Shown here one piece after another: positions 37,177 through 46,436 of a stretch of 64,000 bases of DNA (position 1 is its first letter; every line of letters starts with the position of its first letter). The translations under genes were made by a program, and so were the position numbers. Source of the DNA: Sulfobacillus acidophilus DSM 10332 (GTDB lineage: Bacteria; Bacillota; Sulfobacillia; Sulfobacillales; Sulfobacillaceae); assembly GCA_000237975.1 (NCBI GenBank), contig CP003179.1, positions 2,758,270 to 2,822,269 on the forward strand, written 5' to 3'. The notes under the pieces are model-generated. The model was given only the letters and a program-made list of their open reading frames with translations. It searched no databases and had not been told where the DNA came from.

Positions 37177-37872
37177 TTAATACGTCATGGTAATCAGCGG
37201 GGAGCCGACCAATACTTCCGGATGTCCCCAATAGGTATTGGGGGTTACCGCGACTTGGATATTCACCGGGCGCCCGGCCAGCGTATCGGACGTTCCGATG
37301 GCGGGGGTCTCGCCGGCCACCGATACATATTCGGCCGTAGTCATCGCATTGACCGGGTTGGCTCCGACGGCAGCGAAGGCTTGATTGATGAGACCTTTTG
37401 CCATTGCCGGAGAATAGGACTGCGAGACCCAGCCGACCAGATTGACCGAGAGATGCACGGTTCCGTACGGTGCTAATAGATGGGTCAGCCAATTCTGTGA
37501 ATCATAAAGGCCCGCCAAGCCGTCCGTCGATGTGCGATCAATCACGATATAGGTGCCGCCGGCGGTGAGCGACTCCGCAATAATGCGGGTCGTGACACCG
37601 GCCGTTTGCTGGCTCACGGTGACTTTGTCATACGTCGTGCCGGATTGGCTGACAGGCGCTCCTGAAATGTGGCCGACGTCGGCGACGTCTTTCACCAAAT
37701 GATCCAGTCCCGGATTCCCGGTGACTTCAACCCATCCATTTAAACTATATCCCGTGGCATGCGCTCCCGTGGCCTTGAAGGCGGATGTCAAGGGCGCCAC
37801 CATGGCCGCGTTGGCGCTGGCGCCCAACCACACGAGAAAGCCGATGGGCAATAGCCATCCAATGTATTTCAT
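37177..37872 (-). CDS. ywmB: YwmB family protein
   Basis: This 231-residue protein has an N-terminal signal or anchor (about 1-23) and an extracytoplasmic domain matching the YwmB family (DUF1779, which has a TATA-box-binding-protein-like fold). It contains VTTRIIAESLTAGGTYIVID and the C-terminal SVAGETPAIGT. Function is unknown. ATG 37872 follows AGAAGGGA. In Bacillus ywmB likewise lies just after the atp operon and before murAA-spoIID-spoIIQ; murA and spoIID are missing here. Confidence 0.75.
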   Translation of the reverse strand: MKYIGWLLPIGFLVWLGASANAAMVAPLTSAFKATGAHATGYSLNGWVEVTGNPGLDHLVKDVADVGHISGAPVSQSGTTYDKVTVSQQTAGVTTRIIAESLTAGGTYIVIDRTSTDGLAGLYDSQNWLTHLLAPYGTVHLSVNLVGWVSQSYSPAMAKGLINQAFAAVGANPVNAMTTAEYVSVAGETPAIGTSDTLAGRPVNIQVAVTPNTYWGHPEVLVGSPLITMTY

Positions 37873-37969
37873 CCGAATCCCTTCTTTTTCAAAATCACTC
37901 CCGTCTTGTGAAAGTTTTCCACATCCCTGGCCAATTCATACTCCACGGCAATCCCTGTCGAAAAAAGCC

Positions 37970-37995
37970 TCCCCATGTGAGGGGAGGCTTCTCCA
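37970..37995 (-). terminator. Terminator of the atp operon
   Basis: On the minus strand AGCCTCCCC-TCACAT-GGGGAGGCT followed by TTTTTT. It lies about 20 bases after the stop codon of the displaced atpC 3' end. Confidence 0.88.
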
Positions 37996-38165
37996 ATCGG
38001 ACCGGTGTCGGGCCTTTAATGCGTCATGAGCCGGCCTGCGAGTTTTAAGCGATTTTCAGCCCGTTTTAGTGCGCGTTCCGCCCGCGCCAGATCGACCGCC
38101 GTTTGGCCGCCTCCGGTATTGAGGCGTTCCAAAGCTCGCTGCCGCGCCCGTTCGGCACGGGCAAT

Positions 38166-38173
38166 GTCGACCA
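38166..38173. repeat. Target-site duplication, left copy
   Basis: GTCGACCA on the plus strand, identical to 39589-39596 and directly abutting the element's left end. Confidence 0.85.
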
Positions 38174-38200
38174 GAGGTTGTCCCAGGTTTCGTGGAATTT
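38174..38200 (+). repeat. Left terminal inverted repeat of the element
   Basis: Begins GAGGTTGTCCCA and continues TTTCGTGGAA. It pairs with the right end with about six mismatches. Confidence 0.75.
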
Positions 38201-38224
38201 CGCTAGCGTATCCTTTCTCATGAT

Positions 38225-39490
38225 TTAACCGATTTGCTCGGTTTTTTGTTCGGGTTTATGCGCCACTGCTGATTTTAAGGCCGTTTGCAACACGGGAATC
38301 TCGCGATAGCCCGGGATCCGCGTCAACGTGTCTTCGATGAAAAAGCTCGCCGACGCCAACCAGCGTAAGACTTGTTGCCCATTGGTCCAATGTTTGACGT
38401 TCTGCGCATGGGTCCGAAATTGACTGTTAAGAGATTCCATGGCATTGGTGTTGGCCAACGTTTGGCGCAAGAGGCCCGGAAGACCCAAACGCTGCACGGT
38501 GAGGGTCTCTTCCAACCCTTCTCGGAGGCTCCCGGCGGCGCCGGGATGGTCCCGTTCAAGCTCTTTCGCGAGCGCTTCTAATGCCTGGGCGGCCTTGTCC
38601 GCATCCGGTTCTTGATACGCTTTCCGTAAGCGCTGGCGGACACGATTTTCGGCCGATTTCGGCAGGTGGTCCAGCACATTCCGTTGCTTGTGAATTTGGC
38701 AGCGTTGGATGAGGACGCGATCCCCCCAGACCTCGCGCACCGCTTTGGCTAAGGCCTTGGCGCCATCGATGACCACGAGTAATCCGTGCGCGGCCGTCAG
38801 GCCGCGGGTGATCAGATCCTGTAATAAGGCCGTGACCACGGTATGATTTTCGGTGGCCCCTTCCACCAATCCCAGTACGCGTTTGTGGCCTTCCGCATCA
38901 ATCCCTAAGGCCCCGACCACCATGTGGTCGGCCACGCGCAAACCATCGATCATCACCACAACCCACGTCCGGTCATCCAACCGGCGTTGGAGGAAGCGGT
39001 CGAGGGCCTGTTGGGTGGCTTGGATAAAGCGCCGGCTCACCGTGCTTTTGCTGGGGCCCGGCTGCTCCATCGCGGATTCAAAGGCGGCATCGGCATGGCG
39101 CTGCTGGCGGCTCGCTAAGCCATACAGCATCCGTTCCAGTACGGCTTGGGTCGCCAGCGTCGGGTCCTGAAACTGATGGTAGGTGTCTAACGGAATTTCC
39201 TCCGAGCCATCGGCTGCCCGCACCCGTGGGTGCGAAACGGAGATTTTGCGATCCCCCAAAAAGACGCTCCCGACTTCGGTCCCGTGTCGGACCGCTTGGC
39301 GTTGCGGATCATGACGTCCTTTAGGCCCCGCTAACTGCTCCACCTCGGCCGCCATCATCTGTTGCAAGACCTGCAATCCGACCCGGATCGACAGCGCCAA
39401 TAAGCCGTCTTCCGCATCCTGGAGAATGTCTACCCACGGCACGGTCAGCGTCTGTTCCGAGCGGGACTTTTTCGTTATACTGGAAGCCAC
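38225..39490 (-). CDS. IS256 family (mutator-type) transposase
   Basis: This 421-residue DDE transposase has aspartates in VVVMIDGLRVAD and LLVVIDGAKALAKAV, a C/H region (IQRCQIHKQRNVLDHLP) and glutamate in NTNAMESLNSQFR. GTG 39490 has AAGGAGG eight bases upstream; ATG 39508 is in frame but lacks a good site. No frameshift or stop breaks the frame, so the element may be active or recently inserted. Confidence 0.92.
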   Translation of the reverse strand: MASSITKKSRSEQTLTVPWVDILQDAEDGLLALSIRVGLQVLQQMMAAEVEQLAGPKGRHDPQRQAVRHGTEVGSVFLGDRKISVSHPRVRAADGSEEIPLDTYHQFQDPTLATQAVLERMLYGLASRQQRHADAAFESAMEQPGPSKSTVSRRFIQATQQALDRFLQRRLDDRTWVVVMIDGLRVADHMVVGALGIDAEGHKRVLGLVEGATENHTVVTALLQDLITRGLTAAHGLLVVIDGAKALAKAVREVWGDRVLIQRCQIHKQRNVLDHLPKSAENRVRQRLRKAYQEPDADKAAQALEALAKELERDHPGAAGSLREGLEETLTVQRLGLPGLLRQTLANTNAMESLNSQFRTHAQNVKHWTNGQQVLRWLASASFFIEDTLTRIPGYREIPVLQTALKSAVAHKPEQKTEQIG

Positions 39491-39560
39491 TAGCGATTCC
39501 TCCTTCATGATGGGTTAGACCTCTCTAGTAAACCAGAGAGCCATCGGGATCGCTAGTTTC

Positions 39561-39587
39561 AATTTCCACGAAAAATGGGGCATTCTC
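39561..39587 (-). repeat. Right terminal inverted repeat of the element
   Basis: Read inward on the minus strand it begins GAGAATGCCCCA and continues TTTCGTGGAA. It supplies the stop codon of the truncated epsilon. One extra base (39588) separates it from the duplication. Confidence 0.75.
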
Positions 39588-39588
39588 C

Positions 39589-39596
39589 GTCGACCA
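39589..39596. repeat. Target-site duplication, right copy
   Basis: GTCGACCA on the plus strand, identical to 38166-38173; it is the V90-D91 coding segment of atpC. Confidence 0.85.
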
Positions 39597-39879
39597 TGTC
39601 GGCAGTCTCGGCCGAGTCGGCCAGCACGGTGGTCTCGTCCGCTTGCACTTCTAGAAATCCACCGCCGATCGTCATCTGCTCGGTCTTCCCGTCTTCCAGG
39701 TAAATCGTCATAATGTGGGGCAGCAAAGGGGTAATAATCTGCATATGATGCGCTAAGATGCCGATTTCCCCTTCCGTACTGCGGACCACTATCATGACAA
39801 CCGGACGGTCATAAATGGTCCGTTCCGGGGTCACTACCCGCAGCCGATACGTTGTGGCCATTGTCGTCCCCCCGTCCCG

Positions 39880-42170
<2,291 letters not shown>

Positions 42171-43679
42171 TTAAAACACCGCCGTTTTCTTGAATTGCTC
42201 AATAGCGTCCGACAGTTTTTTGGTCGTTTCGTCACTCAACGCTTTCTCTGTCCGAATCGTCTCCAGCAACCCCGCCTGTTGCTCGTGCAGATACCGGAGA
42301 AAGCCTCGCTCAAAGTCCCGGATGCGTTCTAACGGCACATCATCCAAAAAGCCCTTGGTCACCGCAAAAATAATCGCCACCTGCTCTTCGACCTTGAGGG
42401 GCTGATATTGCGGTTGTTTGAGAATCTCCACCGTCCGGGCTCCCCGGGCCAGCCGGGCTTGGGTCGCCTTATCCAGGTCGGAACCGAATTGCGCAAAGGC
42501 TGCCAGTTCCCGGTATTGTGCCAAGTCCAGACGCATTCCGCCCGCCACTTGTCGCATGGCCTTAATTTGGGCGGCGCCTCCGACTCGGGACACCGATAAC
42601 CCGACGTTAACCGCAGGACGTACCCCGGAAAAGAAGAGGTCGCTTTCCAAAAAGATTTGACCGTCGGTAATTGAAATCACGTTGGTCGGGATGTACGCGC
42701 TAATGTCGCCCGCAAGAGTTTCGATAATCGGCAAGGCCGTCAGGCTGCCACCGCCTTTTTCGTCGGAAAGCCGGGCTGCACGCTCCAATAGGCGACTGTG
42801 AAGGTAAAAGACGTCACCGGGATACGCCTCGCGACCCGGAGGCCGTCGGAGCAATAACGACATGGCACGGTAAGCCACCGCATGTTTGGACAGGTCATCA
42901 TAGACTACCAAGACGTCTTTCCCGTTGTCCCGAAATTCTTCCCCCATGGCACAACCCGCATAGGGGGCCAAATACTGGAGAGGAGCGGGCTCGGAAGCGG
43001 CAGCCGAAACCACGATGGTGTAGTCCATGGCGCCATGTTCTTCCAATGTCTTCACGATGCCGGCAATCGTCGATTCCTTTTGGCCGATCCCCACATAAAC
43101 GCAAATCACATTCTGATCCTTCTGGTTCAGAATGGTGTCAATGGCCAATGCCGTTTTACCGGTCTGGCGGTCACCGATAATGAGCTCGCGCTGCCCCCGA
43201 CCAATCGGAATCATGGCATCGATAGCCTTTAAGCCCGTTTGTAACGGGGTATTCACCGGCTGTCGGTCAATAATACCGGGAGCCGGATACTCGACCGGAC
43301 GTCGTCGATCACTGGCAATCGGGCCTTTGCCGTCTAACGGCTGTCCTAAGGCGGAAACCACCCGTCCGATCAGGGCTTCCCCGACCGGCACCTCGACCAC
43401 ACGGCCGGTCCGGCGGACGCGGTCTCCTTCTTTAATCCCCTCGTCGTCACCCAAGATGACACAGCCGACGTTGTCTTTTTCCAGGTTCAACGCCATACCA
43501 TAGACACCATTGTCGAACTCCAGCAACTCGCCGGCCATACAATCCTCTAACCCGTAAATGCGGGAGATACCGTCTCCGACGCTCAACACCACGCCGGATT
43601 CGGACAGTTCGGTGGTTACCCCGTATTTTTCGATTTCCTCTTTGAGAATGGCACTAATTTCGTCAGGTCTAATGCTCAA
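42171..43679 (-). CDS. atpA: ATP synthase subunit alpha
   Basis: This 502-residue non-catalytic nucleotide-binding subunit has the Walker A loop GDRQTGKT (169-176) and [42 protein letters not shown], which carries the alpha arginine-finger region. The start is TTG 43679 ([20 protein letters not shown]) after GGGGGAGG with eight bases spacing. It overlaps the 3' end of atpH by 11 bases. The length is exactly that of Bacillus alpha. Confidence 0.96.
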
Positions 43680-44235
43680 GGACACTACCTCCCCCGTCTC
43701 CACTGCGCAAGCGTTCGCCCAACAGCGCTAACCGCCGAGCCAAACTGCCGTCCAACACGCGGTCCCCCATGCGAATCACCACGCCCCCCAAAAGCTTCGG
43801 ATCTACGTGCAGCGACAGGTGAACCTGATGTCCGGTGGCACGGGCTAACGCCTGGGTCAGTGCGTCTTTTTCATCGGCACCCAATTCTTCGGCACTGGTG
43901 ACATCGGCATGCCGAATCCCTCGAGCGTCATCCCATAGCCGACGATACTCACTCGCAATTTCACCCAAGACCGTTTCCCGATTTTTATCCAATAAGACTT
44001 CTAAGAAATGCCGGGTCAACTCGTCCAAATCCGAGGCGAAAACACGGTGAACCACGTCCCGTTTGACGCGTTTGGATACTTCGGGGCGCCGAATAAATGC
44101 GCGAAACGCGGGATTTCCGTCCCACACCGCCAATACCCGCTCTAAATCCTCCCAAACGCGCGCCTCCCGGCCGGCCGACTGGGCTAAGGTAAACAGCGCG
44201 CGGGCATAGGGTCTTGCCACCTGCTGATGTATCAT
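43669..44235 (-). CDS. atpH: ATP synthase subunit delta
   Basis: This 188-residue peripheral stalk subunit has an N-terminal helical domain ([33 protein letters not shown]) and the conserved C-terminal [33 protein letters not shown]. Its ATG overlaps the atpF stop by four bases (44235-44232). Confidence 0.95.
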
Positions 44236-44726
44236 TGTAACTGCCCTGCGTCTTGGAGAATTTCTTCCAAATAGAGATGTTGGTCATCGCGGTTGACATT
44301 ACGCTCCAACAGCCGTTCCGTCGCCGCCACCACTAAGTCGGCCACTTGATGGCGAATTTGGGCCAATGCCACTTCTTTTTCATGTTCAATTTCTTCAATG
44401 GCCGCCCGCTGCCGGTAACTCGCTTCCCGTTGAGCCGCGTCAATAATCTTCTTGGCTTGCTCATCGCCCTCGCGGCGGGCATTGGCTAAAATCGCTTTGG
44501 CCTCGTCCCGCGCCTGGTTAATCAGCTGTTGGGCTTCCTGACGTAATTGTTCGGCTTCATTCCTCAGACTATCCGCATCGGAAATTTGCTTGGCGATCGT
44601 CTCGCGACGTTTTTGCATCGCTTGCAATATAGGCTTATATACGTACGCCCTGAGCAAGATAAGCAAAATCACCCATTGCAGCACAGCTGCCAGCATATTG
44701 CCTGCGGTGAGTGAAGTGCTGGACAC
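44232..44726 (-). CDS. atpF: ATP synthase subunit b
   Basis: This 164-residue stator subunit has one N-terminal membrane helix (about 10-28) followed by a long charged coiled coil (RRETIAKQISDADSLRNEAEQLRQEAQQLINQARDEAKAILANARREGDEQAKKII). GTG 44726 lies seven bases after AGGAG. A single b gene implies a b2 homodimer. Confidence 0.95.
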   Translation of the reverse strand: MSSTSLTAGNMLAAVLQWVILLILLRAYVYKPILQAMQKRRETIAKQISDADSLRNEAEQLRQEAQQLINQARDEAKAILANARREGDEQAKKIIDAAQREASYRQRAAIEEIEHEKEVALAQIRHQVADLVVAATERLLERNVNRDDQHLYLEEILQDAGQLQ

Positions 44727-44763
44727 GTCTTAACTCCTTCCTGAATTAGCCAGAATCCTCCGA

Positions 44764-45717
<954 letters not shown>

Positions 45718-45721
<4 letters not shown>

Positions 45722-46131
45722 CCGTTCACCCCCTTGCCTGTGCGATTAAACGCCGCCCACACCAAAAAGACCACGTGGGGCAAGAAAATGCCGGCGAGGG
45801 CCCAACCAAGTGCGACGTGAGTGTAATGGGAGAGGACATAAAAATACCCCCCTAACAGCACCAATCGGGACACCAGACGCAGGTTCAATCCAACGATGGC
45901 TGCGCGGGGATTTAATCGAGCCCAGAGCGGCAACCTGAGACCCAATCCTATCAGGTCAACCAGGCCGGGTAAAATGCCCATTGCTAATCCCCACAGGATG
46001 CGAGACCCTGTCACCCACCCTGCCAGCGCCAAACCGATCCCGATCAGCGCCGTCAGAGCCGCAGCACGTTTCCACTGGGTAGTAAATTCCTTCACCGGAG
46101 TAATATCCGCGACAAATGATAGATCCCCCAA
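45718..46131 (-). CDS. atpI: ATP synthase protein I-like membrane protein
   Basis: This 137-residue protein has four hydrophobic segments in the AtpI position, ahead of subunit a. AtpI helps c-ring assembly or acts in cation supply; it is not part of the finished enzyme. TTG 46131 has GGAG seven bases upstream; GTG 46095 is an alternative. Its start overlaps the preceding small gene by 40 bases. Confidence 0.8.
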
Positions 46132-46319
46132 AATCCCGCTCCGATCCCGAGGATCACTCCACTAACCGTGAGCCACGGGCCCGAGTGGAATACTCCATCC
46201 AGCCAGTGCCCGAGAACAAACCCGAGCAACGTGGCGACGATTAATTGGAAGGACAGTGCAGCTGCGATACCCACACCCCGAAGGCTTGATCCTTCGGATC
46301 CCTTAGGGTCCTCCGACAT
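46092..46319 (-). CDS. atpZ: AtpZ-like small membrane protein
   Basis: This 75-residue protein has two membrane helices (LSFQLIVATLLGFVLGHWLDGVF and PWLTVSGVILGIGAGFWGIYHL) separated by the short polar HWLDG. This is the AtpZ pattern, a partner of AtpI linked to magnesium/calcium supply. It is first in the atp operon. ATG 46319 lies after AAAGGTGAGG. Confidence 0.82.
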   Translation of the reverse strand: MSEDPKGSEGSSLRGVGIAAALSFQLIVATLLGFVLGHWLDGVFHSGPWLTVSGVILGIGAGFWGIYHLSRILLR

Positions 46320-46436
46320 CTCCCTCACCTTTCCGGTGAAATGATTGGCTTAAGTCGCGGCCTCGGAAGAGATTCGGATACCCCGTCGGGTTTCGGTGCG
46401 GGAGACATATACCTACCCCACCTTCACCGAGGCATA

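Follow-up and report, generated by a model that had tools for sequence, protein, structure and literature searches.

An IS256-type insertion element interrupts atpC and truncates the ATP synthase epsilon subunit of Sulfobacillus acidophilus NAL^T

Introduction

The role of the C-terminal domain of the ATP synthase epsilon subunit in living cells is disputed, its effect on hydrolysis depends on the species, and according to a review the part that epsilon plays is not settled across bacteria (PMC5990651). The closest described systems are engineered epsilon-delta-C mutants, in which the deletion starts at residue 90 in Bacillus PS3 and TA2.A1, at residue 91 or 94 in Escherichia coli, and from a stop codon at position 90 in Bacillus subtilis (PMC6692558). 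As reported there, this truncation raises ATPase activity and proton pumping in E. coli, PS3 and TA2.A1, whereas in B. subtilis the ATPase activity drops by 48%, ATP-driven proton pumping is also lower, and the mutant grows in lysogeny broth (LB) at the wild-type rate (PMC6692558). For PS3 F1 with an epsilon stopped after D87, no obvious difference in rotation is described (PMC5990651), and the majority of the atpC transposon insertions in JCVI-syn3A are reported to lie in the 3' region of the gene (PMC6609329). Here, we describe the atpC gene of Sulfobacillus acidophilus NAL^T (DSM 10332), as found in a stretch of 64,000 nucleotides (contig CP003179.1, positions 2,758,270 to 2,822,269; hereafter the window), where the epsilon reading frame is interrupted by an IS256-type insertion element.

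Results

The atp operon is located on the minus strand of the window, from approximately position 46328 down to atpC, which is its final gene (host genome 3,472,898 + 84,933 bases). atpC starts at 39861 on the minus strand and runs into the element after codon 91, while codons 92-140 and the stop codon lie beyond it. The real open frame (39559-39861, minus strand) encodes 100 residues, composed of 91 epsilon residues and an element-encoded tail, GECPIFRGN, as read from the translation. Both flanks of the element carry GTCGACCA (38166-38173 and 39589-39596), an exact 8-bp duplication, and joining the flanks by script, minus the element and one duplication, gave an epsilon of 140 residues. The duplication is not a chance feature, since it stands in exact form at both ends of an element of which the genome contains 12 other long copies, and the truncation of epsilon by the element is confirmed. 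An earlier note on this DNA had given the same coordinates, reading frames and duplication, the same 91 + 9 residues and the same restored protein, and all of these held on re-check. It had also described an element of 1,415 bp with an 8-bp duplication; the exact 8-bp repeat stands, but the element proper measures 1414 bp, and base 39588 is either a ninth, mismatched base of the duplication or one extra base. The length removed by excision is equal in both descriptions (1415 + 8 and 1414 + 9). The features of the locus are as follows.

39589..39861, minus strand: atpC 5' part, codons 1-91, beta-sandwich domain up to D91 (open reading frame (ORF); PF02823; TIGR01216; AlphaFold2)
39559..39588, minus strand: nine element-supplied codons and TGA stop, tail GECPIFRGN (translation)
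38174..39588, minus strand: IS256-type insertion element, core 38174-39587, 1414 bp (copy comparison)
38225..39508, minus strand: transposase, 427 aa, Mutator/IS256 family, co-oriented with the atp operon (PF00872, NF033543)
39562..39587, no strand: terminal inverted repeat at the transposase-5' end (20/26 first positions match the opposite end)
38174..38199, no strand: terminal inverted repeat at the transposase-3' end (copy comparison and inverted pair from a repeat finder)
39589..39596, no strand: target duplication copy GTCGACCA, gene-upstream side (flank comparison)
38166..38173, no strand: target duplication copy GTCGACCA, gene-downstream side (flank comparison)
38016..38165, minus strand: stranded atpC 3' part, codons 92-140 and stop, two C-terminal helices (ORF reading, relatives)
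39880..41289, minus strand: atpD, beta subunit, intact (TIGR01039, 844.8 bits)
41298..46328, minus strand: remaining atp operon, uninterrupted ORFs, presumably gamma, alpha, delta, b, c and a, with two small upstream frames

The subunit names in the last row come from reading of the frames rather than from a family search. The truncated frame matched the F1 epsilon model TIGR01216 with 89.9 bits (cut-off 67.25) over profile positions 1-88 of 130, and Pfam PF02823 over residues 6-84 (3.7e-27), so the N-terminal beta-sandwich domain is present. The C-terminal helical hairpin is absent from the same polypeptide, as the frame stops at residue 100. The ATP-binding motif of regulatory epsilon, (I/L)DxxRA (PMC9317440), is missing together with the helices, because the break falls inside the equivalent stretch, VD/IARA (slash at the break), whose first residue, also in the uninterrupted form, is V. 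An AlphaFold2 model of the 100-residue protein had a mean predicted local distance difference test score (pLDDT) of 87 and contained ten strands, with block values of 91-95 up to residue 80 and a value of 41 for the final ten residues. The truncated protein is thus modelled as an intact beta-sandwich, and the retention of this domain claimed in the earlier note is borne out by the family match and the confident prediction. When the model was compared with solved structures, the second-best match was a PS3 epsilon from which the C-terminal domain had been deleted (8yh8_H, target template modelling (TM) score 0.94). D91 of the query aligns with D89 of Bacillus PS3 epsilon.

The genome was searched for a backup gene. 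The TIGR01216 profile gave one match only, PF02823 gave atpC and two scraps below the cut-off (E 1.06 and 1.35), and a search with the 140-residue protein returned only the two halves of atpC. A second complete atpC elsewhere, which the earlier note had considered, was thus not found by profile or protein searches of the genome. In a search of the same genome for a second F-type ATPase, TIGR01039 found one beta subunit over the cut-off (atpD) and three matches below it, one of which is, by its position, the alpha gene of this operon.

The transposase of the element scored 232.3 bits against NCBIfam NF033543 (IS256; cut-off 150) and 2.9e-43 against PF00872, and the element has imperfect terminal inverted repeats (20/26 first positions). 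Including the atpC copy, 12 copies have both ends. Eight of these, the atpC copy among them, are identical over 1414 bp, one has a 1-base difference, and the remaining three differ by 127, 221 and 224 bases. The thirteenth long copy (L013) lacks its first 31 bases and, with one end missing, was left out of the duplication count. Target duplications of 8-9 bp, the length typical of the IS256 family, were found in 11/12 two-ended copies, L011 having none. Of the nine young copies, the atpC copy has 8 exact bases and one extra or mismatched base; the duplications of the others are exact 9-bp repeats in six cases and 8 bp long in two. Taken together, the copy comparison indicates that the element is young and was recently mobile, and the eight identical copies, the one with a single mismatch and the undecayed atpC remnant support the 'very recent event' that the earlier note had proposed as an option. 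Full-length relatives with 84-92% identity are present in related genomes, e.g. G006, G016, G023 and G240. As to carriage by plasmids, the sole PLSDB match was one of 99 bases at 76% to a Rhodococcus plasmid, in a search from which records of the host genome itself were possibly excluded.

Young copies L004, L005 and L008 are located inside mobile-element or recombinase frames with Pfam support (DUF4277, IstB and tyrosine recombinase, respectively). DUF4277, in the L004 frame, is what we take to be a transposase domain. L003 and L006 lie in or beside transposase-like frames, with weak support from DUF6431 and a helix-turn-helix match below the cut-off, and L009 is on the plasmid, at an unassigned site. 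Several of the other insertion sites deserve mention in their own right. The identical copy L001 (G000:C1:3059123-3063537) splits a 688-codon stop-to-stop frame with an N-terminal domain of FapA, the flagellar assembly protein A family, and has an 8-bp duplication. The identical copy L008 (G000:C1:481378-485791) breaks the tyrosine recombinase gene near residue 74, with a 9-bp duplication. A third identical copy, L007 (G000:C1:541078-545491), sits a short distance upstream of the first ATG in a prepilin-peptidase (A24) frame, the expression of which it could change. At L015 and L013 (G000:C1:3067528-3070175), element bases 2-36 are found approximately 1.2 kb before an 84% copy that begins at base 32, and the overlap of five bases points to the insertion of a different element into this copy, with duplication of 5 bp. 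Finally, the 84% copy L011 (G000:C1:485717-490130), which lacks a target duplication, lies 2.9 kb from the identical copy L008, which points to an earlier rearrangement between element copies.

To place the truncation among relatives, epsilon matches were compared across related genomes. In the same family, 23/24 genomes had an epsilon match, each reaching at least residue 132, and the 24th, which is 83% complete, had no match. All eight genomes of the same order reach at least residue 132. In the same class, 5/8 genomes match; four of these extend to at least residue 133 and one ends at 97 with an internal stop codon. The matches of Sulfobacillus thermotolerans, S. harzensis and the metagenome-assembled genome (MAG) WH5.bin23 extend to residues 135, 136 and 140. 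In the phylum, 173/199 genomes had an epsilon match, and among the matches listed, profile position 128-130 is reached except in G188. The latter genome has an 88-residue, N-terminal-domain-only epsilon immediately after atpD (L066:511-777), apparently a settled natural form.

The reading frame of the stranded codons is unbroken by frameshift or stop, and replacement changes are not in excess. Compared with the nearest relative (L053), 5/45 residues differ in the stranded part and 25 further codons show only synonymous changes; for the N-terminal part these numbers are 17/91 and 42. Over 32 relatives' rows, the mean residue difference of the N-terminal part was 0.37 in pairs that include NAL and 0.42 in other pairs, and that of the C-terminal part was 0.35 and 0.41, respectively, so these pairwise differences gave no sign of relaxed selection on the stranded codons. 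The comparison covered codons 92-136 of the stranded part. Neither the locus of the window itself (L035) nor 7 weaker relatives entered it, and two sequences each stand in it twice (as L021/L053 and L036/L051). Since the stranded codons are undecayed, the C-terminal domain was under purifying selection until recently, where 'recently' may mean decades or some thousands of years, as the test does not separate the two.

Discussion

The reading that we favor, with a probability of roughly 0.8, is that a recently active IS256-type element inserted by chance and left the strain with a working ATP synthase that lacks regulation by the epsilon C-terminal domain, with no adaptive benefit indicated. 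The element would have transposed into atpC at codon 91/92 of S. acidophilus NAL^T, generating the 8-9 bp duplication. As the open frame indicates, translation would end nine codons into the element and yield a complete beta-sandwich without C-terminal helices. By analogy with the engineered epsilon-delta-C mutants, the short epsilon may still join gamma to the c-ring and support ATP synthesis, and the strain would live with this enzyme. The insertion is presumably tolerated because synthesis does not require the part that is lost, and the survival of the strain is unsurprising given the growth of the B. subtilis mutant in LB and the 3' insertions in syn3A. What is lost is the 3' third of the last gene of the operon, and chance is a simpler reading than adaptation; the insertion is probably either neutral or slightly harmful. 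The direction in which ATP hydrolysis changes cannot be predicted from the sequence, since ATPase activity falls in the B. subtilis mutant while it rises in those of E. coli, PS3 and TA2.A1. For the same reason, the proposal in the earlier note that the enzyme runs without epsilon inhibition is not secure.

Several observations weigh against this reading. Vesicles of the B. subtilis epsilon-delta-C mutant are reported to make approximately 19% less ATP, and the mutant was outcompeted by the wild type (PMC6692558), so that drift or compensation would be required for fixation over the long term. The authors of the JCVI-syn3A study called atpC essential in their manual assignment despite the 3' insertions (PMC6609329), and the 100-residue protein could be unstable. 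Moreover, the only clear difference in gene content that is reported between NAL and strain TPY is a different transposable element, located in a potassium transporter (PMC3558970).

The last point bears on how widely the insertion is shared. If it were old and common to TPY, the short epsilon would be a trait of the species instead of the strain. The reported gene-content comparison speaks for this, but eight identical copies and an undecayed remnant speak against it, and we consider it rather unlikely. A truncated atpC could still receive its cluster of orthologous groups (COG), so that a COG comparison says little on atpC of TPY. The lack of decay is a weak test here, since NAL and TPY are 99.01% identical in their aligned parts (PMC3558970), and a remnant of 147 bases common to both strains would be expected to hold no more than one or two changes. 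'ATP synthase' and 'transposase' are both absent from the main text of PMC3558970, 'ATP synthase' is also absent from the main texts of two other Sulfobacillus genome papers and of the TPY transcriptome paper, and this insertion event is not described in the titles or abstract openings found by a literature search. Of the alternatives, the least improbable, though still unlikely, is that the insertion arose in culture and is carried by part of the cells, in which case the strain as a whole would keep a full-length epsilon. Identical copies imply recent mobility, and the competitive disadvantage reported for the B. subtilis mutant (PMC6692558) is compatible with such a polymorphism, but the finished consensus, based on 168.4x Illumina and 51.2x pyrosequence coverage, carries the insertion (PMC3558970). 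Both of these possibilities overlap with a chance insertion, so the odds that we attach to the different readings do not sum to one.

The other explanations depart further from a chance insertion, and all are less probable. The loss of the C-terminal domain might be adaptive if ATP hydrolysis, once freed, served to expel protons at low pH or under anoxia, a benefit that the earlier note had suggested. The reported increases in ATPase activity and proton pumping in E. coli, PS3 and TA2.A1 would fit, but the opposite response of B. subtilis (PMC6692558), the reported lack of an obvious rotation difference for PS3 F1 with an epsilon ending at D87 (PMC5990651) and the retention of the domain in all 23 matched same-family relatives, which argues against a lineage-wide adaptation, leave this benefit unsupported and the idea improbable. 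In addition, at least three and perhaps five of the nine young copies are in mobile-element or recombinase frames, as expected of an unselected burst. That the element was misplaced in atpC by the assembly is very improbable. Nine near-identical copies are difficult for short reads, and the first assembly consisted of 104 contigs in three scaffolds (PMC3558970), but both junctions lie in one gene and share the 8-bp duplication, a pattern that misjoining would not produce, and the record, built with 6-kb and 10-kb paired-end libraries, is classed as finished (PMC3558970). Least credible is a split epsilon, in which the stranded 3' part would be translated on its own into a small protein with the C-terminal helices. 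The stranded frame stays open over 79 codons, reading through the end of the element, and its codons are undecayed, but the latter is explained by the youth of the insertion. Before codon 92 this frame contains no ATG, GTG or TTG, only one ATT and two CTG, which makes separate production unlikely, and a simple scan of 37850-39900 found no sigma-70-like promoter, where 0.8 was expected by chance. Lacking a usual start codon for the helices, this candidate was rejected.

Whether a culture-collection acidophile is actually fixed for an epsilon-delta-C ATP synthase, with the domain loss altering, under strongly acidic conditions, the balance of proton motive force and ATP, is doubtful. If it is, comparison with an uninterrupted sister strain would test the function of the epsilon C-terminal domain in an extreme acidophile. 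Provided that sister strains are intact, a strain in which one insertion removed exactly this domain would lend itself directly to such a comparison, in a species with a very large pH gradient. The locus also calls for caution in using NAL^T as a bioenergetics model of the genus, as its ATP synthase may be atypical.

Compared with known systems, the element is an ordinary member of the IS256-family insertion sequences, with a Mutator-type transposase, inverted ends, 8-9 bp duplications and a length of approximately 1.4 kb, and nothing about it is unusual. A short epsilon as such is already known as well, from G188, from the NCBIfam epsilon models of 88, 101 and 102 positions, and from alphaproteobacteria, the majority of whose epsilons are reported to have truncated C-termini (PMC9317440). 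However, natural N-terminal-domain-only or shortened epsilons such as that of G188 look settled, whereas in NAL^T atpC was disrupted recently, within a family that otherwise retains the domain. The closest counterparts are the engineered epsilon-delta-C proteins (the B. subtilis K90 stop and the PS3, TA2.A1 and E. coli deletions), which likewise keep the beta-sandwich and lose both helices; in PS3 numbering the insertion repeats the engineered break to the residue (D89 equivalent). The difference is that here an insertion element made the truncation, in a culture-collection strain, adding nine extra residues. It is a natural version of a known laboratory mutant and not a new kind of system.
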